From contig NZ_QNUF01000005.1 in assembly GCF_003385455.1 (NCBI RefSeq), positions 62,001-126,000 on the forward strand: a stretch of DNA of 64,000 nt. The letters are read 5' to 3'. Position numbers and translations under genes: made by a program. The notes beneath the pieces were generated by a model. It was not told the DNA's origin. It saw only the letters and a list, made by a program, of their open reading frames with translations, and did not search any database. Shown one piece after another: positions 20,547 through 62,618 of this stretch; position 1 is the stretch's first letter, and each line of letters starts with the position of its first letter. This DNA is from Chryseobacterium rhizosphaerae (lineage in GTDB: Bacteria; Bacteroidota; Bacteroidia; Flavobacteriales; Weeksellaceae).

Positions 20547-22991
20547 ATGGAAAATAATCATATAGATCAACAATTCAATGAAGCTTCGAAGCTTTCAGAA
20601 GAACCTACGGTTTTTCCTGGTTTTGAAAAAGTCTGGGGAAAAATTGAAGAGAAATTAGACCATAAAGAAGAGAAAAAAAGGATGGTCCCTATTTGGTTTC
20701 CTTACGGAGTTGCCGCCAGTCTGGTCATAGGGTTAGGTGCTTTATACTTTCTGAATACAAAAGATGCATCAGAGTCTGTACAGCAGTCAATGGCAGATAT
20801 CAGAACTTCAAAAGAATCTGTTGTCAGTACTAATATTGCCCAAATCGACAGTATAACAAAGATGAACATTCAGAAAGATAAAAATAATGCTGAGCCTGCT
20901 GTAGAAAAAATAGCTGTTCATACAGATCCGGTTTCTGGGCAGCCTTTTGATGTGGCGATGCCGTTACCTGTGCCTGCTCCACCCATACCATCAATTCCTA
21001 AAATCCAGGTGTCAGCAAATGAATATTATGTGCAAAATGCCAAAAATATTGAAGTTTCAGACAGAAGAAAAGAGGTATATCCACCAGATGGTTATTATAC
21101 CCAAAATAAAAACGCTGGCGAATCTACCCAGTCAATTGGGGAGGTTGTAGTGACTGCAATGGGGGTTAAAAGGTCTAAAGCTTCTACGGCATCAGCATCG
21201 AGTGTTATTACTTCAAACAGTATTGCTCCTCAAACCTCTGTTGTCAGTACTTTACAGGGAAGAGTTGCAGGAATACAGATAGGATCGTCAACAAACAATC
21301 AGGTAACCATCAGGGGGGTGGCATCTGTTGCTCCCGGAAAAGATCCTTTGTACATTGTGAATGGAAAAATTGCTGGTGCTGATGATTTCAAAGCGTTGGA
21401 GCCCAGTAAAATTGAAAACGTAGCCATATTAAAAGATGCAGCAGCCACAGCATTATACGGAAGCAAAGCCGCTAATGGAATCATTGTGGTTACCACCAAA
21501 AAACTTTCAAGAAGGGAAAGAAAAAGAATAGAAAAACTTCAGGAAGAAATCAATAAACAGAAACAGATTTCTCCTGTAGCCAATGATGAAAGCTATGATG
21601 CTTTTATAGAAAATCCGTTTGAACTGACCCAAAGTCAGCCATTATCTACATTTTCCATAGACGTGGATAACGCTTCGTATTCCAATGTTAGAAAAATGAT
21701 CAATAATGGAGAGGCTGTCAATAAAAATGCAGTACGGGTAGAAGAGATGATCAATTACTTTACATATGATTATCCACAACCTAAAAATGCAGATCCGTTT
21801 TCTATTAATACGGAATATAATAAAGCACCATGGAATCCTGACCATCAATTGTTGAAAATAGGACTTCAGGGGAAAAATATTCCAATGGATCGTTTACCTG
21901 CTTCCAATCTGGTTTTTCTTATTGATGTCTCCGGATCAATGGATGAACAGAATAAGCTGCCGCTACTGAAATCATCTTTTAAGGTACTGCTGAATCAGCT
22001 CAGACCTAAAGATAAAGTAGGAATTGTAGTATACGCAGGAAGTGCCGGAATGGTTTTGCCTCCCACATCAGCTGGGGAAAAAGATAAAATTGTTCAGGCT
22101 TTGGATAGATTACAGGCTGGAGGAAGTACAGCAGGAGGAGAAGGAATTGAATTAGCCTATAAATTAGCCCAGGAAAACTTTGTAAAAGACGGAAATAACC
22201 GTGTGATCATTGCAACCGATGGAGATTTTAATGTTGGAGAATCATCTACGTCAGATCTTCAGACGCTTATTGAAGGCAAAAGAAAATCCGGAGTTTTTCT
22301 TACCTGTTTAGGCTTTGGAATGGGTAACTATAAGGATAATACCCTGGAAACCCTGGCGGATAAGGGAAATGGAAATTATGCCTATATCGACAATATGCAG
22401 GAAGCCAATAAGTTTTTGGGAAGAGAATTTGCAGGAAGTATGTATGCCATTGCCAAAGATGTAAAAATTCAGATTGAATTTAATCCGGAGTTTGTAAAAT
22501 CCTACCGATTGATCGGCTACGAAAACAGGAAGCTGAGAAATGAAGACTTTGTGAATGATAAAATAGATGCCGGAGAACTGGGAAGTGGGCATACGGTTAC
22601 CGCTTTGTATGAGATCATTCCTGCCAATATAACATCTGATTATCTTCCTAAAGAGAACGGATTGAAATATACACAGACTATTTCTTCAAAGAAATTTGGA
22701 GAAGAGCTGGCTACCATCAAATTCAGGTATAAAAAACCGGATGAAGAAAAGAGTCAGGAGATCAGTCAGGTTGTTAAAAATTCTAACCGTAATATCTCTT
22801 CAGCTAGTCCGGACTTTAAGTTTGCTTCTTCTGTAGCATGGTTTGGATTGGTACTAAGAGATTCCAAACTAATTAAAGTAAAAGACTTACATGCAATTGA
22901 GAGTTTGGCCAAAGAAGGGAAAAGTAAAGATGAAGAGGGATATAGAAGCGAATTTATAAGGTTGATAGAAAGCTATAAAACAAGTAAATAG
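20547..22991 (+). CDS. Anti-sigma-like / TonB-plug-like / von Willebrand A fusion protein
   Basis: 814 residues in four parts. (1) A cytoplasmic N terminus (1-46) rich in acidic and Lys residues, with FEKVWGKIEEKLDHKEEKK as in anti-sigma proteins of Bacteroidota. (2) One membrane segment (about 48-69). (3) A plug-like domain (about 199-319) with EVVVTAMGV, LQGRVAGIQIG, VTIRGVAS and ATALYGSKAANGIIVVTTK, as in SusC-type TonB receptors but with no barrel. (4) A YfbK-type VWA region with NPFELTQSQPLSTFSIDVD, MIDAS DVSGS (D460, S462, S464) and a DUF3520-like C terminus. The single polypeptide would place the plug and VWA domains in the periplasm. Function unknown; signal sensing for the sigma factor is inferred. 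Confidence 0.85.
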   Translation: MENNHIDQQFNEASKLSEEPTVFPGFEKVWGKIEEKLDHKEEKKRMVPIWFPYGVAASLVIGLGALYFLNTKDASESVQQSMADIRTSKESVVSTNIAQIDSITKMNIQKDKNNAEPAVEKIAVHTDPVSGQPFDVAMPLPVPAPPIPSIPKIQVSANEYYVQNAKNIEVSDRRKEVYPPDGYYTQNKNAGESTQSIGEVVVTAMGVKRSKASTASASSVITSNSIAPQTSVVSTLQGRVAGIQIGSSTNNQVTIRGVASVAPGKDPLYIVNGKIAGADDFKALEPSKIENVAILKDAAATALYGSKAANGIIVVTTKKLSRRERKRIEKLQEEINKQKQISPVANDESYDAFIENPFELTQSQPLSTFSIDVDNASYSNVRKMINNGEAVNKNAVRVEEMINYFTYDYPQPKNADPFSINTEYNKAPWNPDHQLLKIGLQGKNIPMDRLPASNLVFLIDVSGSMDEQNKLPLLKSSFKVLLNQLRPKDKVGIVVYAGSAGMVLPPTSAGEKDKIVQALDRLQAGGSTAGGEGIELAYKLAQENFVKDGNNRVIIATDGDFNVGESSTSDLQTLIEGKRKSGVFLTCLGFGMGNYKDNTLETLADKGNGNYAYIDNMQEANKFLGREFAGSMYAIAKDVKIQIEFNPEFVKSYRLIGYENRKLRNEDFVNDKIDAGELGSGHTVTALYEIIPANITSDYLPKENGLKYTQTISSKKFGEELATIKFRYKKPDEEKSQEISQVVKNSNRNISSASPDFKFASSVAWFGLVLRDSKLIKVKDLHAIESLAKEGKSKDEEGYRSEFIRLIESYKTSK

Positions 22992-45536: not shown

Positions 45537-47000
45537 TTACGGATTCTGGGTAATCTGTGGGTTGTTATTGATTTCTTTATTAGGGATCTGAAACCTGAAT
45601 TTGTCCGGTGATAGATTAAACCTTCCGAAAGTATGGTTCGTTCCCGGGTATATCCTTTCCAATGGGGTATTTAATCTTTTCATATCAAACCAGGCGTAGC
45701 CTTCTCCCCAAAGCTCTATTCTTTTTTGAAGGATAATTTCACTGATCAGTTCATTTCCTGTTTTTGAAGAAAGGGTGTATGCCTTATCTCTTTTGGATGA
45801 AATCTCAAATAATACCTGTCTGGCCTCGGCTTCTCTTCCCTGTCTGGCAAGGGCTTCAGCTTCTATATAGTAAAGCGAGGAAGCTCTGATATAGATATAA
45901 TCGCCCTCAAAAAGACTAGGATCTTTAAACTTCCAGCTTACATAGGCAGGATAGTTTTTGGTTTTTCCATTAAAAGTATATGAAGCACTTTGGCTGCCAT
46001 TGAAAACTTTTTTCCGGTAATCCGTTTCCGGAATAGCATCATAAAGACGTTTGTCTATCAGTTTACGGATCTGCGCAGCTCCGGCATAGCCTTCATTGGT
46101 ATTATCAAACATAGAGAAGAAAGAAGCATAATAATTCCCGATACTCATAGTGGATATGGTATTGTGGAACCCCCATATTGCTTCGGGATTGCTGACAGTA
46201 GAGAATCCGGTAGTGGTATAGTCGTTTTCTGTCATCAGGGCAATACCCTGTTTACTTTCTTCTGCATATTGGGCAGATTTAGCATAATTTCCTGTTTCCA
46301 AAAATACTTCAGCAGCAATAGCCTTAGCTGTCCTCTGATCAATCTGAGCTTTAGAAGGGCGGGCAAAAGTATCCAGAAGGACAATAGACTCTTCAATATC
46401 TTTAACAATTTGCCCATATACTTCTGAAACGGTTGATCTTGGAAGTCCCTGGCTTGGGTTACTGCTTGTCAGGACTAAAGGAACGCCGGGTTCCGACTGA
46501 TGTTCTTTGTAGCTGTTAGCATAAAAACGTACCAAATAAAGATAGGAATAGGCTCTTAATGCAAGCAGTTGCCCTTTAATAGCTCTGTTTTTGGTACCCG
46601 TATCATTTTTCAGATCATCAAGAAGCTTATTGATTACAAATATTCTTGCATAAAAAGTGGTCCATACAATTTCTGAGGCAGAATTGCTGGCATTGGTTGC
46701 CTCATAATTATAAAACATTCCCAAATGCTGATTGGTAGACTGTATAACATCATTGGACATCAGGTCTGCACCTGCTTTTATTCCCATAATCCCAAAATCG
46801 GAATGAGAGGTCGTTCCTCCGGCTCCATTGCTTCGGAGATCAAGATAGATTCCGCCCAATATTTTTTCAGGGCTTGATGAGTCATTATTTAATTGCTCTC
46901 CGGATATATCGCCTTCCGGCAGCGTATTGAGGTCACTGGAGCAGCTATGCGCTATCAATCCGATGCTTATAGCAGTTATAAAGTATTTTATTGTTTTCAT
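45537..47000 (-). CDS. SusD/RagB family nutrient-binding lipoprotein
   Basis: 487 residues. The lipobox HSCSSD near residue 18-23 places a lipidated Cys at about 20, so the protein is an outer-membrane lipoprotein. TPR-like blocks typical of SusD (ALRAYSYLYLVRFY, RTAKAIAAEVFLETG, YIEAEALARQGREAEAR, KRIELWGEGYAWFDMKRL) run through the sequence. It binds the nutrient above the SusC channel. It ends 8 bases after susC on the same strand. There is no glycosidase in the pair, so the nutrient may not be a glycan. Confidence 0.95.
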   Translation of the reverse strand: MKTIKYFITAISIGLIAHSCSSDLNTLPEGDISGEQLNNDSSSPEKILGGIYLDLRSNGAGGTTSHSDFGIMGIKAGADLMSNDVIQSTNQHLGMFYNYEATNASNSASEIVWTTFYARIFVINKLLDDLKNDTGTKNRAIKGQLLALRAYSYLYLVRFYANSYKEHQSEPGVPLVLTSSNPSQGLPRSTVSEVYGQIVKDIEESIVLLDTFARPSKAQIDQRTAKAIAAEVFLETGNYAKSAQYAEESKQGIALMTENDYTTTGFSTVSNPEAIWGFHNTISTMSIGNYYASFFSMFDNTNEGYAGAAQIRKLIDKRLYDAIPETDYRKKVFNGSQSASYTFNGKTKNYPAYVSWKFKDPSLFEGDYIYIRASSLYYIEAEALARQGREAEARQVLFEISSKRDKAYTLSSKTGNELISEIILQKRIELWGEGYAWFDMKRLNTPLERIYPGTNHTFGRFNLSPDKFRFQIPNKEINNNPQITQNP

Positions 47001-47008
47001 AAGTTCTT

Positions 47009-49963
47009 TTAAAATGTTAGTTTAAAGCCGAGAGAGACACTTGATAGCGTAGAATATTTGTATGAATCTGAAACTCCGGTTAATGAAGTTCTGGGATCAT
47101 ATCCTTTTCTCTTGGACCATAGGTAGAGGTTGTTTCCTGTGAGGTAAACTTTTAAACCGGATAAACCAGCCTGTCCTGCAAAATCATCAGGCAGCTGATA
47201 AGACAGCGTAACATCCTGAAGGCTGATGTAATCTGATTTGATAAGATAGAGTGTTGAATTTCCATTCTGATTGGTTGATGTCAGGTCCACTCTTGGTAAA
47301 GCTGCACCGGGGTTTTCAGGAGTCCATGTTTTATCCAGATCCGTAGAGTAGTTAGAGGCATAGGTATCCGAATGGAATAAGCTTCTGTAAATATCATCAT
47401 ACCCATAGCCGCCAAACTGATAAGCAAAATTAACAGACAGGTTCAATCTCTTATAGGTTACATCTGTTCCAAAACCACCATACACTTTAGGAATAGCTGA
47501 TTTTCCAGTATTGTAGTCTGTAGCCTCCTTATAATTATTGGTTATGGTTTTTTCTTCCTTTTGAGTGGTTGGGTTGATGACTGTACGGTACCATAAGGCA
47601 TCCCCGTTATTGGGGTTTACACCGGCAAACTCTTTAAGGTAGTAGGTATATCTGTCACCGCCTTCCGCCAAAATAAACAGGCCGCTGACAAGACCCGTAT
47701 TTCTCTGTTCAGCAGGTAATCTGGTAATTGTATTTTTATAATGGGTCGCATTGGCGTAGATATTCCATTGGAAATCATCGGTACGAAGAACATCCACATT
47801 GATATTAGCCTGTACACCTCTGTTTGTCATGTCTCCTATATTTCCGTATTTTACATAAGATCCGGCATTGGAGGGAGGAAGAGGAAGCGTATAAATCATA
47901 TCTGAGACTTTCCTTTCAAAATAATCAGCATTTAAGGTAATCCTGTTTTTCAACAGGGAGATTTCAACACCGGCATTCAGATTCTTGGAAGTTTCCCATT
48001 TTAAATCTTTGTTTCCTTGCTTTTTGAGGGATAGCACAGGCTTGTCATCCCCAAAATTGTTGATCCCATAGATATCCTGATACGCATAATAATCCCTATT
48101 GGTCCCGTCTAACAGGATGTTGTCATTTCCCTGCTGTCCGTAGGAAGCTTTTAACTTTAAAGAATTGATCAGCGCATTATCTTTAAGAAAGTTTTCTTTG
48201 GCCACATTCCATGCTACTCCCAATCCATAGAAATTTCCCCATCTGCTTTCCGGAGAAAAAACAGAAGAGCCATCTCTTCGTACATTGGCATTAAAGAAAT
48301 ATTTACCGTCATAATTATAGAGTAATCTGGAGAAATACCCTTCTACAGCATACTCATAGCCATTCCCGGACAGGTCTGTTATTTTTACGGCATTATCAAA
48401 AGACAATGAATTCGGTAATAAAAGTTGTTGTTTTGATCCGGAAAATCCTTCATTTTTTATTTTGTTTAATTCGTGGCCTACAAGGATGTTGAAACTATGA
48501 TTGCCTAATTTCTTTTGATAGGTAAGCAACTGCTGATGATTCAGGGTATATTTGAAAATTGAACCTTTGGAAATAGTACCGCCCACGGATGATGATGTAC
48601 CTCCTTCTGTATTTCCAAACTGAAGGTTGGTGACATTCTCAAGATAAGCTCCGAAATTATAAGTAAAGTCCAATCCTTTAATGATTTCATAGTTTAACCC
48701 CAGGTTGATATTCGTAATATTGCTGGTGGTTTGAGATTTATCCTTTTGGAGATTGCCCACCGGATTTTCAAACACAGCATAAGACCTTGTAGCTCCGTTA
48801 GGACCTTGCCCGTCACCATAATCATACAGAGCATTTCCATTAGTGTCGTAGAGCTGTTGATAATTATTATCTCTGAGGAAAACAGGATAAAAAGGAGATA
48901 TATTTCTGGCAAACTGAAAAGGATTGGAAAAACCACCTGATTCTCCAAAATCCTGCTTGCTGTAAGTATAAGAAAGGGCTGTCGTTAATTTTAGTTTTGA
49001 GGTAATAGAATAGTCCAGGTTGGATCTTATCCCAAACCTTTCAAATCCGGAGGAGATAAGATAGCCTTTATCATCCAGGTAGTTTAAGGACGTATAAGAT
49101 TTTACCTGATCACCATTGGCACTGATTCCTACAGTAGCTTCCCTTCTTAGGGCAGGTTTGAACAGCAGCTTTTTCCAGTTATCCTGATACAATAACTGAG
49201 CATCCGGATTAAATTGACCGTCTTTTGTAATCAGCTGATTAAAAGGAGTGTTGTAAACATTGTATCCCAGTTTGCTTAAAGCAGCCAATCCCGCAGCATG
49301 AGGACTGGCAGCAGAAGGTATAGCACCCGGTTGCTGGAGTCTTGCCACTTCTCCAATCCTCGCCCTGTTATAGTATGCGGTATAATAATCCTGTGGAGAG
49401 GTATAAACCGAATAATCTTCAATAGATCTGAAATTAACCCCGGTTCTCACATCAGCTTCAATATGTAACCCCTTCGTTTTGCCTCTTTTGGTGTTGACAA
49501 TAATAACACCGTTGGCTCCTCTTGATCCGTATAAAGCATTGGAAGAAGCATCTTCAAGAAAGGAAATACTTTCAATATCTGAGGCTGCAATACTGTTGAG
49601 GTTTCCGCTGTAGGGGATACCGTCCAGAACGATGAGTGGATCACTGGAGGCGTTAATAGAACCTATTCCTCTCATTCTTATAGTTGGCTGTGAGCCGGGT
49701 TGTCCTGAAGAGATTACCTGTACACCGGCAACCTTTCCACCAATTCCCTGAAGAATGTTTCCGTTTTGAAGGTTAGACAGGTCTTTAGCTTTTAAGGACT
49801 GTACAGATCCGGTGATCTCTTCTTTTTTCTGTTTTCCAAAGGCTACCACCACCACTTCTTTGATCGAGGTTTCTTTGGAGAGGCTGTCTTTACTTTGTGC
49901 AAAGCCATATTCTGCGAATAAAAGCACAGCCAATACACCAAGTTTGCATTGTTTTTTTCTCAT
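47009..49963 (-). CDS. SusC/RagA family TonB-dependent outer-membrane transporter
   Basis: 984 residues. After a signal peptide (MRKKQCKLGVLAVLLFAEYGFAQ) comes the plug (about 35-160: SIKEVVVVAFGKQKKEEITGSV, RMRGIGSINASSDPLIVLDGIPY, EDASSNALYGSRGANGVIIV). The rest is a large beta barrel ending in an F residue (LGFKLTF). The usual N-terminal carboxypeptidase-regulatory-like domain is absent, so the chain begins near the TonB box. It drives uptake of a nutrient with SusD using TonB energy. A long leader with a Met/Cys-rich short ORF precedes it, which hints at sulfur-amino-acid control. Confidence 0.95.
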   Translation of the reverse strand: MRKKQCKLGVLAVLLFAEYGFAQSKDSLSKETSIKEVVVVAFGKQKKEEITGSVQSLKAKDLSNLQNGNILQGIGGKVAGVQVISSGQPGSQPTIRMRGIGSINASSDPLIVLDGIPYSGNLNSIAASDIESISFLEDASSNALYGSRGANGVIIVNTKRGKTKGLHIEADVRTGVNFRSIEDYSVYTSPQDYYTAYYNRARIGEVARLQQPGAIPSAASPHAAGLAALSKLGYNVYNTPFNQLITKDGQFNPDAQLLYQDNWKKLLFKPALRREATVGISANGDQVKSYTSLNYLDDKGYLISSGFERFGIRSNLDYSITSKLKLTTALSYTYSKQDFGESGGFSNPFQFARNISPFYPVFLRDNNYQQLYDTNGNALYDYGDGQGPNGATRSYAVFENPVGNLQKDKSQTTSNITNINLGLNYEIIKGLDFTYNFGAYLENVTNLQFGNTEGGTSSSVGGTISKGSIFKYTLNHQQLLTYQKKLGNHSFNILVGHELNKIKNEGFSGSKQQLLLPNSLSFDNAVKITDLSGNGYEYAVEGYFSRLLYNYDGKYFFNANVRRDGSSVFSPESRWGNFYGLGVAWNVAKENFLKDNALINSLKLKASYGQQGNDNILLDGTNRDYYAYQDIYGINNFGDDKPVLSLKKQGNKDLKWETSKNLNAGVEISLLKNRITLNADYFERKVSDMIYTLPLPPSNAGSYVKYGNIGDMTNRGVQANINVDVLRTDDFQWNIYANATHYKNTITRLPAEQRNTGLVSGLFILAEGGDRYTYYLKEFAGVNPNNGDALWYRTVINPTTQKEEKTITNNYKEATDYNTGKSAIPKVYGGFGTDVTYKRLNLSVNFAYQFGGYGYDDIYRSLFHSDTYASNYSTDLDKTWTPENPGAALPRVDLTSTNQNGNSTLYLIKSDYISLQDVTLSYQLPDDFAGQAGLSGLKVYLTGNNLYLWSKRKGYDPRTSLTGVSDSYKYSTLSSVSLGFKLTF

Positions 49964-50004
49964 TATATTATCATCTTTAAGTTTAAAATCGTAGGATATG
50001 ACGG

Positions 50005-50119
50005 CCTGTACTTCCAGTTAAGGAATAAGAAGTCCCGGCCTCCCTTTTTGGGGAGGTTCCAGTGAAAAGCTTATAATGGGTACAGGGTTAGTTAAGCCTT
50101 GAAATAAAAGGCCCTACAG
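50005..50119 (-). promoter_or_regulatory. Structured leader RNA before susC, with alternative pairings
   Basis: On the minus strand a 7-base closing stem (50080-50086 with 50005-50011) encloses a 6-base hairpin (50039-50044/50051-50056) and a 4-base hairpin (50012-50015/50022-50025). A third hairpin lies at 50096-50100/50108-50112. The base word TACAG occurs at 50081 and 50115, both complementary to CTGTA at 50006-50010, so two mutually exclusive folds are possible. The element lies between the stop of the short leader ORF and the susC start. Confidence 0.45.
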
Positions 50120-50140
50120 TATCAGATTGTGTATGTGAAG

Positions 50141-50296
50141 TTATGACATCATCATTGTACACATCGAAAATTCAAAACACATATTTTGAGAAGTATGATC
50201 GTGCTGTGAAAGACATAGATATGCACTGCGGTTATGTTGGGCAGACATCCTATCGACGATGGTGAACAGGTAAGTATCGGAGTAATTTTTATTCAT
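50141..50296 (-). CDS. Short Met/Cys-rich leader ORF upstream of susC
   Basis: 51 residues from the ATG at 50296 (MNKNYSDTYL) to the TAA at 50141. The last 13 residues, MCFEFSMCTMMMS, contain five Met and two Cys. An upstream stretch has TTTTGACAC and a TAAACTTTA-like box, so the ORF probably starts soon after a promoter. The sequence has no family I know. The composition near the stop codon is that of an attenuation leader peptide, where scarce Met or Cys would stall ribosomes. That reading is an inference. Confidence 0.45.
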   Translation of the reverse strand: MNKNYSDTYLFTIVDRMSAQHNRSAYLCLSQHDHTSQNMCFEFSMCTMMMS

Positions 50297-50329
50297 GAGA
50301 ATAAAGTTTATTTTTTTTAACTGTGTCAA

Positions 50330-50679
50330 AATTATTTAATTATTTGTAAATCCTTATCAATAGGGGATATGAGATATATCATATAAGTCTACTAATTTAG
50401 TAGGGTAATGGGGATTTAAGTATTTGAAGTATGGATTTTAAATGTAATATATTTTAAATCAGTAAGTTATTTATTTCGTTGAAATGCGAGATAAAGTCTC
50501 TATTAAGCTTCTTATATGGTGTGAATAAATCTTAATAATAAAAGTCTATTGTTTTTGTAGACTTTTTGTTTATTTTATGGGAATGAGATGAGTTTGTTTT
50601 TGGCTAAGAAGAAGTGAGATTGAGCGAAGTCTGTTTTAAGCGGTATTCAGAATTTTACATCAACAAAAAATAGATAAAA
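50330..50679. other. Intergenic region with an orphan terminator-like hairpin
   Basis: 350 AT-rich bases upstream of the NmrA-like gene. A hairpin AAAAGTCTA/TAGACTTTT at 50540-50566 is followed by TTTTGTTT, but no gene precedes it on the plus strand. A smaller stem CTACTAA/TTTAGTAG lies near 50388-50403. A short non-coding transcript could run between them; otherwise nothing is seen. Confidence 0.4.
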
Positions 50680-56840: not shown

Positions 56841-56970
56841 ATGGGTGGATGCACCCGTATTTTTTTTAAATAAACAGTTTGTGATATTTTTTTCACAAAT
56901 TACTGCATAGTCTTTGATCAGAAGCTATAAAACAAGGAGTAAAAATCAGTATTATTGTAAGATCAATAAT
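56841..56970 (+). promoter_or_regulatory. Leader of the molybdenum-enzyme cluster: hairpin, CRP/FNR-like palindrome, second palindrome
   Basis: The 311-base gap 56671-56981 holds, from left to right, a hairpin ATGGGTG-GATG-CACCCGT (56841-56858) followed by TATTTTTTTT. Next is a palindrome TTTGTGA-N8-TCACAAA (56878-56899), like a CRP/FNR-type site with two extra spacer bases. Last is ATTATTG-N6-CAATAAT (56951-56970) just before the first gene. A terminator-like hairpin here has no gene in front of it, so it could act as an attenuator, or reflect a short transcript. Confidence 0.45.
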
Positions 56971-56981
56971 TGATACACTTT

Positions 56982-57731
56982 ATGGGACATTGGGAAATCA
57001 TCTTGTTCTTTCTGGTGATAGCGTTTGTTTATTCATCAGTAGGATTTGGAGGAGGGTCAAGTTATCTTGCTGTGTTGGCAATGTATGGTCTTCCATATCA
57101 GGAGATACGCCTGATAGCTCTTATATGCAACGTGATTGTCGTTACGGGAGGAGTTTATATTTATATTAAAAATAAACAGACCGATTGGCGGAAAATACTG
57201 CCCATTACCCTTGTGAGTGTACCCATGGCCTATCTGGGTGCCATACTGAAGATCAGTCAGGAAACTTTTTTTCTGATCCTGGGGATCACCCTGATTATAG
57301 CAGCCATATTGTTATGGATAAAAACAGATGCAAAGAACAACGCTGAAATATCACAGGATTCACAGGCATCCGTCATTCGGAATGGCTTTTTGGGAGGCGG
57401 AATCGGGTTTCTTTCTGGTTTGGTAGGTATAGGAGGGGGGATCTTTCTTTCCCCACTGCTTAATCTGCTGAAGTGGGATACCCCAAGAAAAATTGCTGCC
57501 ACCTCCAGTTTTTTTATATTGGTTAATTCCATATCAGGAATTTTCGGACAGCTCACAAAACTATCCGTAGATATGGACTTCTTTAGAATTCTGAGTTTAT
57601 GTCTGGCCGTTTTTATCGGTGGACAGATAGGTTCCAGAATGTCTCTCAAATGGAACCCCTTAGTTATAAAAAGAGTGACAGCTGTGCTTGTTCTGGTAGC
57701 GGGAATAAATGTTTTAATAAAATACTGGTAA
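56982..57731 (+). CDS. TSUP (TauE/SafE) family membrane permease
   Basis: 249 residues from the ATG at 56982 (MGHWEIILFFLVIAF); an in-frame TTG at 56970 adds four residues. About seven or eight hydrophobic segments lie in two related halves. GFGGGSSYLAVLAM in the first half and GIGGGIFLSPLLNLL in the second are the paired TSUP motifs. The family exports or imports sulfur oxyanions or organosulfonates. Placed first in a molybdenum cluster, it may carry sulfite, sulfate or another anion for the enzyme in the cluster; this is an inference. Confidence 0.9.
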   Translation: MGHWEIILFFLVIAFVYSSVGFGGGSSYLAVLAMYGLPYQEIRLIALICNVIVVTGGVYIYIKNKQTDWRKILPITLVSVPMAYLGAILKISQETFFLILGITLIIAAILLWIKTDAKNNAEISQDSQASVIRNGFLGGGIGFLSGLVGIGGGIFLSPLLNLLKWDTPRKIAATSSFFILVNSISGIFGQLTKLSVDMDFFRILSLCLAVFIGGQIGSRMSLKWNPLVIKRVTAVLVLVAGINVLIKYW

Positions 57732-57744
57732 ACCCCACTTAAAA

Positions 57745-57987
57745 ATGAAACTTAATATATTGGCGTTCGGAATAGCAAAAGATATTTTTGGAACACCGGA
57801 CATGGAAATAGAAACCACAGAAGACTTGAATGTCGGACAGCTAAAAGATATTCTGGAAGACCGTTTTCCACAGCTGAGAAAACTGAAATCTTATTTTATT
57901 GCTGTGGATGAAGAATATGCGGATGATGACCGCATCATAACAGGTACTAACGAAATAGCAGTGATCCCTCCCGTAAGCGGTGGATAA
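57745..57987 (+). CDS. moaD: Molybdopterin synthase small subunit
   Basis: 80 residues with a ubiquitin-like beta-grasp and a C-terminal PPVSGG, the exact GG end needed for thiocarboxylation. It carries sulfur to MoaE during molybdopterin synthesis in the cytoplasm. moaE follows after five bases, so the two synthase subunits are coupled. A ThiF/MoeB-type activating enzyme lies in the same region at 63596. The length is normal. Confidence 0.93.
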   Translation: MKLNILAFGIAKDIFGTPDMEIETTEDLNVGQLKDILEDRFPQLRKLKSYFIAVDEEYADDDRIITGTNEIAVIPPVSGG

Positions 57988-57992
57988 AAAGT

Positions 57993-58409
57993 ATGATTGA
58001 TATAAAAATAACCGACCAGGCACTGAATATAGCTGACTGTTTAGAGGTTGCTCATGATCTGGGCAGCGGAGGAACAGCCACTTTTATAGGAACCGTTCGT
58101 AACAGGACCAAAGAAAAGCCTGTTGTCCGCCTGGAGTTTGAATGTTATCAAACTATGGCGATTAAGGAAATGCAAAAGATAGCCGACGCAGCTGCTGCTC
58201 TGTTTTCCGTTCGCAATATAGTGGTTCACCATCGAGTAGGAATACTATATCCCGGTGATGCGGCAGTGATCATTGTTGTTAATGACGGACATCGTGAGGC
58301 AGTTTTTGATGCCTGCCGGTATATCATTGATACCCTAAAACAAAAAGTTCCGATCTGGAAAAAAGAAATTTTTGAAGATGGAGATGAATGGGTTTCCGCA
58401 CATCCGTAA
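57993..58409 (+). CDS. moaE: Molybdopterin synthase large subunit
   Basis: 138 residues. GGTATFIGTVRNRTK, LEFECYQTMAIKEM, HHRVGILYPGDAAVIIVV and PIWKKE are MoaE blocks; the Lys residues of the last one are in the active site. It converts cyclic pyranopterin phosphate to molybdopterin with two MoaD molecules. It lies directly after moaD. Typical length, no missing motif. Confidence 0.94.
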   Translation: MIDIKITDQALNIADCLEVAHDLGSGGTATFIGTVRNRTKEKPVVRLEFECYQTMAIKEMQKIADAAAALFSVRNIVVHHRVGILYPGDAAVIIVVNDGHREAVFDACRYIIDTLKQKVPIWKKEIFEDGDEWVSAHP

Positions 58410-58456
58410 TGGTAAGGAATAAAATTTCGTATATTTACTATAATACTTCTTGTTAG

Positions 58457-59332
58457 ATGAAAATCAATACCTTGAAATATAATTCAGTACAGAAGATAGA
58501 GATTATCAAAGTTAAGGATAACACAAGTTTTCCCTATACGGATGATATTTCAGTGGAAGAACCATTGGAAATCAGGATTTCATTCGGATCAGAATCCTAC
58601 AGGGAGACGAAAAACCTATCCGTTACCATGAGAACTCCCGGAAATGACAGGGAACTGACAGCCGGTTTTCTATATACGGAAGGGATTATTGAAGACCCAA
58701 AGCAGATCAGAAATGTACAGCATGCTCAGGAGGCATGTTCCAGAACCAGTGAAAATGTGATCATCGTTGAACTTGCAGAAGGATTTGTTCCACAGCTGAT
58801 GAAAACTGACAGAAATTTCTATACCACCTCCAGTTGTGGAGTTTGTGGAAAAGGATCCATCGAATCAATACGAACTGTAAGTGCTTTCCATAAACTGGAA
58901 AAAGAAAAAATTACCCTCAATCTGGAAACCATCTATCAATTATCAGAGAAACTAAAATCTTTTCAGGATAACTTCAGTGCCACAGGGGGAATACATGCTT
59001 CAGGCATTTTTGATCTGGAAGGTAATCTTCTTGCCGTGCGGGAAGATGTAGGAAGGCATAATGCACTGGATAAATTGATAGGATATGCCGTGTTCACTGA
59101 CCAGCTGCCATTGAAACATAAAATTTTAGTATTAAGTGGAAGGGCAAGTTTTGAACTGGTTCAGAAAGCGGCAATGGCAGGTATTCCGGTTATTGCAGCA
59201 ATAGGAGCTCCCTCCAGTCTCGCAGTAGATCTGGCAAAAGAGTTTGATATCACTTTACTTGGGTTCCTTCGGGACAACAGGTTTAATATCTATCACTCGG
59301 GGACTAATTTTGAAATTAAAAATTTGATATGA
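58457..59332 (+). CDS. fdhD: Formate dehydrogenase accessory sulfurtransferase
   Basis: 291 residues. The redox CxxC motif is CGVC (C127, C130) in TTSSCGVCG, and the lobe GGIHASGIFDLEGNLLAVREDVGRHNALDKLIG is the FdhD signature. FdhD gives sulfur to the molybdenum of a formate-dehydrogenase-like enzyme, needed for activity. Its last four bases overlap the next start (ATGA), so translation is coupled. The partner is the large oxidoreductase at 59699. This supports that enzyme being of the FdhF/YdeP type. Confidence 0.96.
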   Translation: MKINTLKYNSVQKIEIIKVKDNTSFPYTDDISVEEPLEIRISFGSESYRETKNLSVTMRTPGNDRELTAGFLYTEGIIEDPKQIRNVQHAQEACSRTSENVIIVELAEGFVPQLMKTDRNFYTTSSCGVCGKGSIESIRTVSAFHKLEKEKITLNLETIYQLSEKLKSFQDNFSATGGIHASGIFDLEGNLLAVREDVGRHNALDKLIGYAVFTDQLPLKHKILVLSGRASFELVQKAAMAGIPVIAAIGAPSSLAVDLAKEFDITLLGFLRDNRFNIYHSGTNFEIKNLI

Positions 59333-59679
59333 AAATAAGAATAAAAGATAATTCCGTGAGATTCCGAATTACCCAATCGGAGGTTACGGAATTGCACAAA
59401 AATGGAATAATCTCCAGCACCACACAATTTATAGACAACCCATTTATATATACTGTTGAAAAAACAGATGAACAACAGCTGTCAGCTGCATTTGTAGAGC
59501 ATAGAATTGTAATGAAAATTCCAGGTTTTATGGTAGAAGAACTGGCTACTACAGATAGGGTGGGTTTCGACGGATTGAGCGGAAAAGTTCAGCTCCTGAT
59601 AGAAAAAGACTTTGTATGCCTTGATAATACCATAGAGGATCAGAGTGATAATTATCCGAATCCAAATATGAAATGCTAA
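59329..59679 (+). CDS. DUF7009 family protein
   Basis: 116 residues. The opening MKIRIKDNSVRFRITQSEVTELHKNG and the C-terminal LLIEKDFVCLDNTIEDQSDNYPNP are conserved features of the DUF7009 family as I know it, found next to molybdenum genes in Bacteroidota. No signal peptide or metal-binding motif is clear, apart from Cys in FVCLD and NMKC. The start overlaps fdhD by four bases. It may help in loading or stability of the molybdoenzyme, but there is no direct evidence. Confidence 0.75.
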   Translation: MKIRIKDNSVRFRITQSEVTELHKNGIISSTTQFIDNPFIYTVEKTDEQQLSAAFVEHRIVMKIPGFMVEELATTDRVGFDGLSGKVQLLIEKDFVCLDNTIEDQSDNYPNPNMKC

Positions 59680-59698
59680 CCCAAAAAAATAAAAGGCG

Positions 59699-62092
59699 AT
59701 GGAAGAACATGATAACAATAAAATAGAAAAGGAAATTAAGAATGAGCCTCAGGCAGAAAATCCTTACAGATTACTTGATCTAAAACTTACACATGTTGAA
59801 AAATCAGCTGCCGGAATTCCTGCAGTATTAGCTGCTTTTAGTGATTTATTTGAAGAAAAAGCCCCTATTCGAGGGATGAGGGCTTTATTTAAAATGAATC
59901 AGATGGGTGGTTTTGACTGTCCCAGCTGCGCCTGGCCGGATCCGGATGATGAACGTTCGGTTCTTGGTGAATATTGTGAAAATGGGGCTAAGGCTCTCGC
60001 AGAAGAAGCGACAACCAAAAGAGTTACCCCGGAATTCTTTAAAGAAAATTCTGTATTTGATCTGGCAAAACTGGACGACTACGAGATCGGCAAGATGGGA
60101 AGACTTACGGATCCCATGTACTTGCCGGAAGGAGCTACTCATTACCAACCAATAAGCTGGGATGAGGCTTTTAAAAAAATAGCAGGACATCTCAATGCAC
60201 TGGAATCTCCGGATGAAGCAGCCTTTTATACCTCCGGAAGAACGAGTAATGAAGCATCTTTTGTTTATCAGCTGTTTGCAAAGGAATTCGGAACCAATAA
60301 TATGCCCGATTGCTCCAATATGTGCCATGAAACTTCGGGATCAGCACTGCGTCCTACCATTGGAATTGGTAAAGGTACAGTGACTTTGGAGGATTTTTAC
60401 GAAGCCGAAGTCATTGTTATTATCGGACAGAATCCGGGAACCAATGCTCCCAGAATGATGAGTGCTCTTTCAAAAGGAAAAAAGAATGGAGCTAAGATTA
60501 TAGCCATAAATCCATTGCCGGAAGCAGGTCTTATGGGCTTTACCAATCCACAGAGTGTTAAAGATATTCTTAATGGCGGAGTACAGCTGGCTGATCTCTA
60601 TCTGCCCGTTAAGATCAACGGTGATATGGCTCTTTTAAAGGCGCTGGAACTTTTGTTGATCGAATTTGAAAAGGAAAATCCGGGCTCTGTGTTTGATGAA
60701 AATTTTATTACAGAAAAAACAGTAGGATATGAGGATTTTATCAGACAGTTTGATCATTATAAACTAGATGAGCTGGCTTCCCTTTCGGGAGTTTCGAAAG
60801 AATTAATCTATGAGGCTGCAGTAACAATAGCATCTAAAAAAAGAATTATTTTCAGCTGGGGAATGGGGCTTACCCAACAGCCCAATGGAGTGGATATGAT
60901 CCGTGAAATTCTCAATATTCTTTTGCTAAAAGGGAGTATAGGCATACCTGGAGCTGGGGTCTGTCCTGTTCGGGGGCACAGTAATGTTCAGGGAAACAGG
61001 ACCATGATGATTGACGAAAAACCTACAGATGAACAACTTGACCGTCTCGAAAAGTTTTATGGTTTCAAAATGCCACGCAAGCACGGCTATGATGTCGTAA
61101 GAGCAATTAAAGCCATACATGAAGAAAAAATAAAGGTCATGTTCTGCATGGGAGGAAACTTCCTTTCGGCAACACCTGATACCACTTATACAGCCCATGC
61201 CCTCAGAAAACTTAACCTTCTGGTCTCTGTTTCTACCAAACTTAACCGGGGACATCTGGTTCATGGAAAAGAAGCACTTATCCTGCCGACCTATGGCCGT
61301 AGTGATAAAGATATTGTGAATGGTAAACTACAGATCGTAACAACCGAAAACTCTATGGGGGTAGTTCAGGATTCAAAGGGAATACTGGATGCCGTATCCA
61401 ATAATCTGATCAATGAAACTCAGATTGTCTGCCGTATGGCAATGGCTACTTTAGGAGAAAGATCTGTGGTCAGCTGGCAGCGTTATCATGACAGCTACGA
61501 TGCCGTACGGGATGATATCGAGCAGTGTATCCCGGGTTTTGAAAATTATAATGTCCGTGTCCGCCAGAAAGGAGGCTTTTATCTTCCGAATGCTGCACGG
61601 GATAAACAGGAATTCTCGAAAGAACTGGGAGGGCGTGCCCCTTTTACCTTGACAGAAGTACCGGATAATACGCTTGCTGCAGATGAATATATGATGGCAA
61701 CCACCAGAACTCATGACCAGTTCAATACAACTATCTATGGATTGGATGATCGCTACCGCGGGATTAAAAATGAGCGCAGGGTAATATTTATGAATCAGAA
61801 TGATATTGATAAAGCAGGTTTTAAAGCCGGAGATCGGGTAGACCTTTACAATTATGATGACGGGATAGAGCGTGTAGCACCACTGTTTATCATTGTTTCT
61901 TATCAGATTCCGGAAAAAAATACCGTTACGTATTTTCCGGAAACGAATGTCCTGGTATCCGTCAATAATGTTGTCAAGGAAAGTAATATGCCCGCATCAA
62001 AATATGTGAAAATCAAAATTATGAAACATGACCCCGAAGTATACAAAAAAGTAGATCAGATGCTTTATCAGGGGGCTATTCAAAGACCGTAA
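59699..62092 (+). CDS. YdeP/FdhF-like molybdopterin oxidoreductase
   Basis: 797 residues. The N terminus has a paired-Cys motif CPSCAWPDP (C74, C77) instead of the four-Cys iron-sulfur motif of classical FdhF. C209 in NMCHETSGSA is the expected molybdenum ligand, in the place of Sec/Cys of formate dehydrogenases. NPLPEAGLMGFTNP, the pterin-binding GIPGAGVCPVRGHSNVQG and a C-terminal molydopterin-dinucleotide-binding domain (from about 680, TRTHDQFNTTIYG) are present. No Tat signal is seen, so it is cytoplasmic. Family members include YdeP (acid resistance) and relatives of formate dehydrogenase; the substrate is unknown. Confidence 0.9.
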   Translation: MEEHDNNKIEKEIKNEPQAENPYRLLDLKLTHVEKSAAGIPAVLAAFSDLFEEKAPIRGMRALFKMNQMGGFDCPSCAWPDPDDERSVLGEYCENGAKALAEEATTKRVTPEFFKENSVFDLAKLDDYEIGKMGRLTDPMYLPEGATHYQPISWDEAFKKIAGHLNALESPDEAAFYTSGRTSNEASFVYQLFAKEFGTNNMPDCSNMCHETSGSALRPTIGIGKGTVTLEDFYEAEVIVIIGQNPGTNAPRMMSALSKGKKNGAKIIAINPLPEAGLMGFTNPQSVKDILNGGVQLADLYLPVKINGDMALLKALELLLIEFEKENPGSVFDENFITEKTVGYEDFIRQFDHYKLDELASLSGVSKELIYEAAVTIASKKRIIFSWGMGLTQQPNGVDMIREILNILLLKGSIGIPGAGVCPVRGHSNVQGNRTMMIDEKPTDEQLDRLEKFYGFKMPRKHGYDVVRAIKAIHEEKIKVMFCMGGNFLSATPDTTYTAHALRKLNLLVSVSTKLNRGHLVHGKEALILPTYGRSDKDIVNGKLQIVTTENSMGVVQDSKGILDAVSNNLINETQIVCRMAMATLGERSVVSWQRYHDSYDAVRDDIEQCIPGFENYNVRVRQKGGFYLPNAARDKQEFSKELGGRAPFTLTEVPDNTLAADEYMMATTRTHDQFNTTIYGLDDRYRGIKNERRVIFMNQNDIDKAGFKAGDRVDLYNYDDGIERVAPLFIIVSYQIPEKNTVTYFPETNVLVSVNNVVKESNMPASKYVKIKIMKHDPEVYKKVDQMLYQGAIQRP

Positions 62093-62105
62093 TAAAAAAT
62101 AAACG

Positions 62106-62618
62106 ATGAGTATAAATCAGAAATCTCTATATTTAGGCAAAATATGGATATTCGCCCTGTTTTTGATTGCGGGTATGGTATCTGCCCAGTCGCAATTTAA
62201 ACTAAAAGTAAGTGGGGAGGTATCACAGCCGCTGGAGCTCTCCTTATCTGATCTTGTAAAAATGCCCAGAAAGGAAGCTAAATTAAAAGATAAAGAAGGA
62301 AATGTTCATGTGTATACAGGAGTTTCTGTTCTGGATATTCTTGCCAAAGCCGGGGTTCCTTCCGGTAAAGAATTACACGGTGAAAACCTTTCCAAATACC
62401 TGCTGGTACAATGTACCGACGGATATCAGGTTTTATTCTCTCTGGCAGAGCTGGATCCGTCGATTGCAGATAAAAATGTGATTGTAGCAGATACCATAGA
62501 CGGTAACCCATTATTGAAGGAAAAAGGTCCGCTCCGTATCATTGCCGAAGGTGAAAAAAAACCGGCCCGGAGTTCTTATCAGGTAGAAGCCTTGATTGTG
62601 GGGCATATTAAAAAGTAA
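62106..62618 (+). CDS. Small periplasmic protein with sulfite-oxidase-type molybdopterin-binding fold
   Basis: 170 residues with a signal peptide (MSINQKSLYLGKIWIFALFLIAGMVSAQ). The mature part (LKVSGEVSQPLELSLSDLVKMPRKEAKL, YTGVSVLDILAKAGVP, YLLVQCTDGYQVLFSLAELDP, PLRIIAEGEKKPARSSYQVEALIVGHIKK) follows the Oxidored_molyb domain. The core Cys-bearing loop is shortened to QCTDGYQ, and the C-terminal half of true sulfite oxidases is missing. It lies 14 bases after the large enzyme and could bind or supply the cofactor or substrate in the periplasm. Confidence 0.75.
   Translation: MSINQKSLYLGKIWIFALFLIAGMVSAQSQFKLKVSGEVSQPLELSLSDLVKMPRKEAKLKDKEGNVHVYTGVSVLDILAKAGVPSGKELHGENLSKYLLVQCTDGYQVLFSLAELDPSIADKNVIVADTIDGNPLLKEKGPLRIIAEGEKKPARSSYQVEALIVGHIKK

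Follow-up and report, generated by a model that had tools for sequence, protein, structure and literature searches.

In the trp, his and ilv attenuators a short leader ORF carries codons for the regulated nutrient near its stop, and structured RNA separates it from the operon. SusCD pairs are mostly regarded as importers of glycans or peptides whose control is of the sugar type. In mycobacteria, Cys codons cluster at the C-terminal end of conserved small uORFs that precede cysteine genes, an arrangement for which the authors called their own attenuation reading speculative (PMC4633059, in the part of the paper available). In Bordetella, the CruR uORF heads the bfrG operon, which encodes a TonB-dependent transporter; there Rho-dependent termination was shown, with no intrinsic terminator, and CruR is a copper-sensing DUF2946 protein that carries CXXC and RAPP motifs (PMC9426467, available part). 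Within the phylum of the locus studied here, amino-acid leader ORFs have so far been merely suspected, in B. thetaiotaomicron (available text of PMC7366714), and we found no prior report of the Met/Cys leader element described below in the open-licence literature.

The DNA analysed, here called the window, is a 64,000 nt stretch of Chryseobacterium rhizosphaerae (GCF_003385455.1, NZ_QNUF01000005.1 positions 62,001-126,000), and coordinates are positions within it unless another locus is named. It carries on the minus strand a susC gene (47009..49963; 984 aa, SusC/RagA TonB-linked outer membrane protein, NCBIfam TIGR04056, 626 bits) and a susD gene (45537..47000; 487 aa, Pfam SusD-like_3 and SusD_RagB), family matches that confirm the SusC/SusD identity originally given to the pair. 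It had also been described as having no glycosidase partners, and none was seen among the adjoining ORFs, as read from those neighbours; the pair is flanked by an aspartyl-protease ORF and an NmrA-like ORF, and downstream of susC-susD nothing was constant in 14 loci from related genomes. Among solved relatives, the SusD-like entries are described as carbohydrate binding and the SusC homologues include RagA, a peptide importer; these relatives are too distant to decide the cargo and were rejected as a guide to it. Elsewhere in the window, on the plus strand, a single protein (20547-22991) combines a TonB plug domain with von Willebrand and YfbK C-terminal domains, and a run of genes (56970-62618) encodes TauE, MoaE, FdhD, a molybdopterin oxidoreductase and a further molybdopterin-binding protein.

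Upstream of susC lies a 51-codon ORF (50144..50296, minus strand; ATG at 50296, stop at 50143-50141) encoding the peptide MNKNYSDTYLFTIVDRMSAQHNRSAYLCLSQHDHTSQNMCFEFSMCTMMMS. As the original prediction had stated, five Met and two Cys fall within its final 13 residues, MCFEFSMCTMMMS (50144..50182, minus), which composition and pN/pS mark as the candidate control-codon end; the susC start follows 177 nt after the leader stop. This composition is above chance: among the 77 ATG ORFs of 40-60 codons on both strands of the window, the leader has seven Met plus Cys in its last 13 residues and the runner-up two. Likewise, among 934 distinct short ORFs from the loci of named relatives, only leaders (40 of Chryseobacterium type and two from Elizabethkingia) have at least five, the other 892 having at most four. 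The window peptide contains neither a CXXC nor a RAPP motif, and an NCBIfam scan of it gave zero matches.

The leader peptide was detected in same-genus relatives by a tblastn-like search, and a search with a 13-row profile found it once per genome in 66 of 173 same-genus genomes (E<1e-11), the next-ranked matches having E values of 0.05 or worse; it was absent from 107 genomes in the same search. A susC frame starts 160-208 nt past the leader stop in 63 of the 66 leader genomes, including one (G156) in which the susC N-terminus is shifted, and two genomes (G098 and G159) have the leader together with a broken susC. In one genome (G070, locus L057) the leader is retained although the site behind it no longer holds susCD. 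An independent named collection had the leader at 39/39 Chryseobacterium loci where susC has a long frame, a locus with a broken susC (L252) having been left out. In an order-wide SusD search that scored four candidates per genome, 14 genomes of the genus had a SusD with 84% identity or more, and every one of them was a leader carrier.

Over 61 distinct leaders (48-53 codons), Met and Cys account for 59.3% of positions in the final 13-residue stretch, against 9.7% in the remainder, so that codons for the presumably sensed amino acids are over-represented near the end, as in attenuators. Cys40 is present in 61/61 of them, Met50 and Met51 in 60/61 and Met47 in 59/61. Since both Cys codons are used at position 40 (TGC 36, TGT 25), it is the amino acid that is conserved there, beyond the mere bases. 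The pN/pS ratio is 0.43 for columns 1-20, 0.79 for columns 21-38 and 0.23 from column 39 on, and an SQH motif is kept in 67/79 loci. Judged by these patterns of substitution, the leader ORF is real and conserved at the amino-acid level, with its frame kept and pN/pS below 1, as would be expected of the short upstream ORF of an attenuator. The expectation that the Met/Cys content ahead of susCD would be conserved in related genomes was thus borne out.

Leaders in other genera differ in sequence. At two Elizabethkingia loci (SusD 83% identical) we found a leader of 44 residues; its first 30 are unrelated, and its end, FQCMCYMYSM, has a Met/Cys spacing unlike that of Chryseobacterium; at the E. 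miricola locus (L254) there was no long susC frame and no leader was obtained. In Pedobacter nutrimenti, where susC and susD are 67% and 65% identical and were called orthologous to the window pair, a different, 30-codon ORF (L255 1585-1677) stands ahead of susCD, ends in TTSCCCL, with three Cys and no Met, and lies downstream of a -7 box, TACCTTTG, and of an operator-like site bearing three mismatches. This leader was found by eye, and the Met/Cys filter alone would have missed it; with that filter, no leader was recovered ahead of susCD at any of 11 loci from Flavobacterium-type relatives (SusD 43-47% identical). As far as sequence comparison can tell, nothing argues more strongly that the codons matter than these two replacements, which retain sulfur amino acids.

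The promoter region suggests how the leader is transcribed. A -7 box, TAATTTTG (50327..50334, minus), lies 30 nt upstream of the leader ATG and matches the Bacteroidetes consensus TAnnTTTG (PMC7366714, available part), so that transcription likely starts about 25-30 nt upstream of the leader; the consensus ends 28-33 nt upstream of the ATG in 62/62 distinct homologous promoters. Further upstream is a palindromic, operator-like site (50385..50407; TACCCTACTAAATTAGTAGACTT on the minus strand) with the core CTACTAATTTAGTAG at 50389-50403, and this 15-bp core has its only exact copy in the C. rhizosphaerae genome here; neither the box nor this site figured in the original prediction. In the 62 distinct promoters the palindrome core CTACTAAWTTAGTAG occurs with zero, one, two and three mismatches in 29, 23, 9 and 1 cases, respectively, hence with at most two in 61/62, and lies 53-54 nt before the -7 box; at most two mismatches were also reached in 35 of 1996 random 131-nt segments, drawn from loci that include the leader loci. 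With the whole 23-mer at up to three mismatches, the own genome has 10 places and the reversed control pattern 6, so such loose matches mean little; at no more than one mismatch, 29/40 genomes have 1-3 places and the reversed control none. Between operator and promoter lies a second near-palindrome, TATGATATATCTCATA (50368..50383, minus), which is conserved in the promoter alignment, has its only exact copy in the own genome here and takes the form TATGATATATATCATA in Elizabethkingia; as a regulon marker it was rejected, with 115 loose matches against 63 for a control pattern.

The operator-type site recurs at sulfate-assimilation genes. It was present, with 1-4 core mismatches, between an Rrf2 gene and cysH in 17/17 genomes, these being the ones that yielded an Rrf2 gene at E<=1e-40 among 30 searched; the Pfam assignments come from the own genome, and cysH in the 16 others was named by position and start. 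In the own genome (contig C7, L192 8182-8264) an operator-like palindrome lies between the two genes. The Rrf2-type regulator beside cysH (PF02082, 111.6 bits) shares this sulfate-assimilation cluster with two PAPS_reduct proteins, a CysN-type GTPase, a hexapeptide transferase, a PLP enzyme, a tetrapyrrole methylase, a flavodoxin-type reductase and sulfite-reductase domains. Other good sites in the own genome stand ahead of a NIL-domain protein, a 1-Cys peroxiredoxin, a TonB receptor and a second susCD. The palindromes preceding the stand-alone NIL-domain protein (PF09383, 24.6 bits with a cut-off of 24) and the 1-Cys peroxiredoxin are at L197 5761-6152 and L103 about 1501-1540. The second susCD (contig C39), whose SusD is only 28% identical to that of the window, is preceded by a SAM-I riboswitch plus a sulfur-type palindrome. 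That riboswitch (RF00162) scores 66.9 bits, with a cut-off of 44.4, at L196 5165-5262 on the minus strand. From the position of its gene, the Rrf2-type regulator encoded beside cysH is probably the protein that binds the operator. The operator common to cysH and to the susCD with the SAM riboswitch supports the sulfur link guessed in the original prediction; the imported substrate may contain sulfur.

Between leader and susC, three hairpins and a closing stem had been proposed. The window copy is indeed predicted to fold, from leader end to susC, into a closing stem that encloses three hairpin regions (-39.6 kcal/mol), a structure only modestly above chance for a single copy, because its z score against shuffles is -1.82 and 6/200 shuffles were equally good. 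Its closing stem would pair UGUAGG (50113..50118, minus) with CCUACG (49990..49995, minus) and is displaced with respect to the conserved stem ATTACTGT/CAGTAAT; the window copy is without about 20-25 nt found in homologues and pairs differently. The hairpin CCTCCC-CAAAAA-GGGAGG (50039..50056, minus) occurs both in the predicted fold and in homologues, its helix being preserved in 91.8% of cells for the 61 homologues, with 3/5 pairs changed on both sides.

We sorted the 61 homologues by eye into groups g1 (17 sequences), g2 (26), g3 (8), g4 (4) and g5 (6). Folded separately, g2, g3, g4 and g5 are each predicted to form the closing stem ATTACTGT/(A,G)CAGTAAT, which was not predicted in g1 (17/61 sequences). 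In one alignment this stem is formed in 88.4% of cells, and for 3/8 of its pairs one sequence or more has both partners changed. With the two hairpins added, pairing reaches 91.0%, versus 46-75% when slid. For the whole stem set, pairing was above all shuffles and the number of covarying pairs above only 459/500. Since relatedness alone can yield such values, we call the modelled closing stem likely, not proven. RNAalifold on all 61 sequences gave two short weak hairpins only (-1.67 kcal/mol), and covariation in stem P2 was discarded as a signal: its pairs are kept in 81.8% of cells, but 500/500 shuffles covary at least as much. The proposed architecture thus stands up only in part, with a closing stem predicted in g2-g5 and not in g1, and an aberrant copy in the window itself.

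The original prediction also had the 3' word TACAG (50010-50006) pairing with either of two upstream CTGTA copies, at 50119-50115 and 50085-50081 (span 50081..50119, minus). The words are present, and the predicted window fold pairs the second copy with TACAG; five-base matches alone are weak evidence, and the alternative pairing belongs to the aberrant window copy, the odd one out without the stretch seen in homologues, so it was rejected as a conserved switch. The conserved element is the stem ATTACTGT/(A,G)CAGTAAT.

No intrinsic terminator was found between leader and susC in the window or at the Pedobacter locus, and 1/61 homologues had one, against 0-2 of 61 in shuffles, none beyond chance. 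An intrinsic terminator as the output was accordingly rejected, and terminator-type attenuation was not seen; the terminator before the first structural gene, a feature of the classical attenuator, is absent. The C-over-G excess that would point to Rho is slight (12.3, versus 10.7 in shuffles). In a model with the ribosome placed at different codons (59/61 sequences), pairing moves between leader and stem, the mean leader pairing without a ribosome being 0.96 (g1), 0.55 (g2) and 0.53 (g5). In the shuffle control of this competition, run on the same 59, mean z was -1.34 (g1), +0.23 (g2), +0.23 (g3), -1.77 (g4, 3 sequences) and -0.64 (g5), that is, no better than shuffles in 34/59 (g2 and g3) and only moderately better in the others. 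Although the model made it attractive, refolding of the leader codons with the closing stem as a general mechanism is thus unsupported by the shuffles in g2 and g3.

Several other explanations were weighed against a regulatory leader peptide. The control element might be a metabolite- or protein-binding RNA of riboswitch type, with the upstream ORF secondary, and its candidate is a block, ACTGTAGGAATTAAAG, common to the 61 distinct homologues and at least 90% conserved at most columns, g1 included despite the missing closing stem; exact copies of TTAYTGTAGGAATTAAAG number 14 in 40 genomes, 13 of them at leader loci and the fourteenth in G027, and a SAM riboswitch is used by a related susCD. 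However, Rfam gave no window match at the gathering score and a local RNA-family scan to E 10 only one weak, chance-level match on the opposite strand, scans that also led us to reject a tRNA-like or known RNA family identity; Elizabethkingia and Pedobacter are without the block yet keep Met/Cys or Cys codons, and the amino-acid-level selection on the leader end would go unexplained, so we regard this explanation as unlikely. Cys and Met are Cu(I) ligands, and the Met/Cys end of the nascent peptide could instead bind Cu(I), or sense thiol oxidation, and so relieve or cause arrest. The operator found upstream of a 1-Cys peroxiredoxin would suit such a sensor, as would the precedent of CruR, which heads a TonB-dependent transporter operon in the same gene order and acts through Rho termination without an intrinsic terminator (PMC9426467, available part). 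The window peptide has no CXXC, though, the operator keeps company with sulfate assimilation and a SAM riboswitch, and the Met/Cys spacing differs in Elizabethkingia while the Pedobacter end has no Met; metal or redox sensing is to our minds quite unlikely.

Two further explanations deny the leader a sensing role. Were the ORF a functional small protein co-made with susCD and without any cis regulatory part, the purifying selection on its N-terminal third (pN/pS 0.43) and the conserved SQH motif would be accounted for, but not the fast-evolving middle (0.79), the constant place before susC, or the fact that Elizabethkingia has other first 30 residues, and Pedobacter another peptide altogether, with the Met/Cys or Cys end retained, which makes it very unlikely. 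That the leader merely starts translation, or is a chance ORF, we consider exceedingly improbable: leader genes can boost downstream translation by reinitiation, but the 160-208 nt to susC are far above the 10-16 nt optimum (PMC4833913, available part), and the conservation in 66/173 genomes and the Met plus Cys bias speak against both.

The explanation we favour, and think rather probable, is that translation of the Met/Cys-codon leader controls a sulfur-scavenging susCD operon, as an amino-acid leader-peptide regulator. What the analysis shows is a conserved ORF with Met/Cys codons, an operator in sulfur company, RNA structure in most groups and no intrinsic terminator. Transcription would begin about 25-30 nt ahead of the leader, from a promoter with a sulfur-regulon operator, for which the Rrf2-type regulator of the cysH locus is the probable binding protein, and the first 50 or so codons, the last dozen mostly Met and Cys, would then be translated. 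With Met and Cys plentiful, the ribosome would reach the stop and leave, and the roughly 180-200 nt before susC would favour the OFF state; with Met- or Cys-tRNA short, it would stall in the Met/Cys run beside the structured RNA and susCD expression would rise. Stalling, regulator and output step are all conjectural here, and the direction of the response is assumed from nutrient logic. Our best guess for the output is Rho-dependent termination as in CruR-bfrG, with translational control and RNA decay as alternatives.

If its operator, the SAM riboswitch of its sister pair and its Met/Cys leader together link susCD to the sulfur regulon, this would suggest scavenging of organic sulfur at the outer membrane and give a direct route to the substrate of susCD. 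If true, uptake of organic sulfur through SusCD would be a regulated response to sulfur starvation, and the phylum would gain a well-supported amino-acid leader peptide whose output step cannot be a textbook terminator. More generally, the case seems to us evenly balanced that Bacteroidota use Met/Cys-codon leaders as terminator-less sulfur-amino-acid sensors for SusCD importers, under the operator of SAM-riboswitch susCDs, the codons having shifted from Met plus Cys (Chryseobacterium, Elizabethkingia) to Cys alone (Pedobacter).

Set against the known systems, the element works like an amino-acid leader-peptide regulator and falls outside the classical attenuator class on the terminator. It shares with the trp, his and ilv attenuators a short leader ORF, a codon run close to the stop and structured RNA before the operon; unlike them it has no intrinsic terminator and no clear mutually exclusive stems that we could find, would sense Met plus Cys, and precedes an outer-membrane importer, not a biosynthetic operon. 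The SAM-I riboswitch, found before the second susCD of the same genome, controls sulfur-amino-acid genes but is a ligand-binding RNA without a leader peptide, whereas the element studied here has no Rfam match at the gathering score. The Pedobacter end SCCCL has the look of the mycobacterial Cys-rich uORFs, which differ in phylum and target, susCD being the target here, and Met codons prevail in Chryseobacterium (PMC4633059, available part). In CruR-bfrG, too, a uORF leads a TonB-dependent transporter operon without an intrinsic terminator, although the window peptide is without the CXXC and RAPP motifs of CruR (PMC9426467, available part). By analogy, and as far as the available parts of these two papers go, CruR-bfrG would be the closest mechanistic relative without a terminator, and the mycobacterial Cys-rich uORFs the closest by look.
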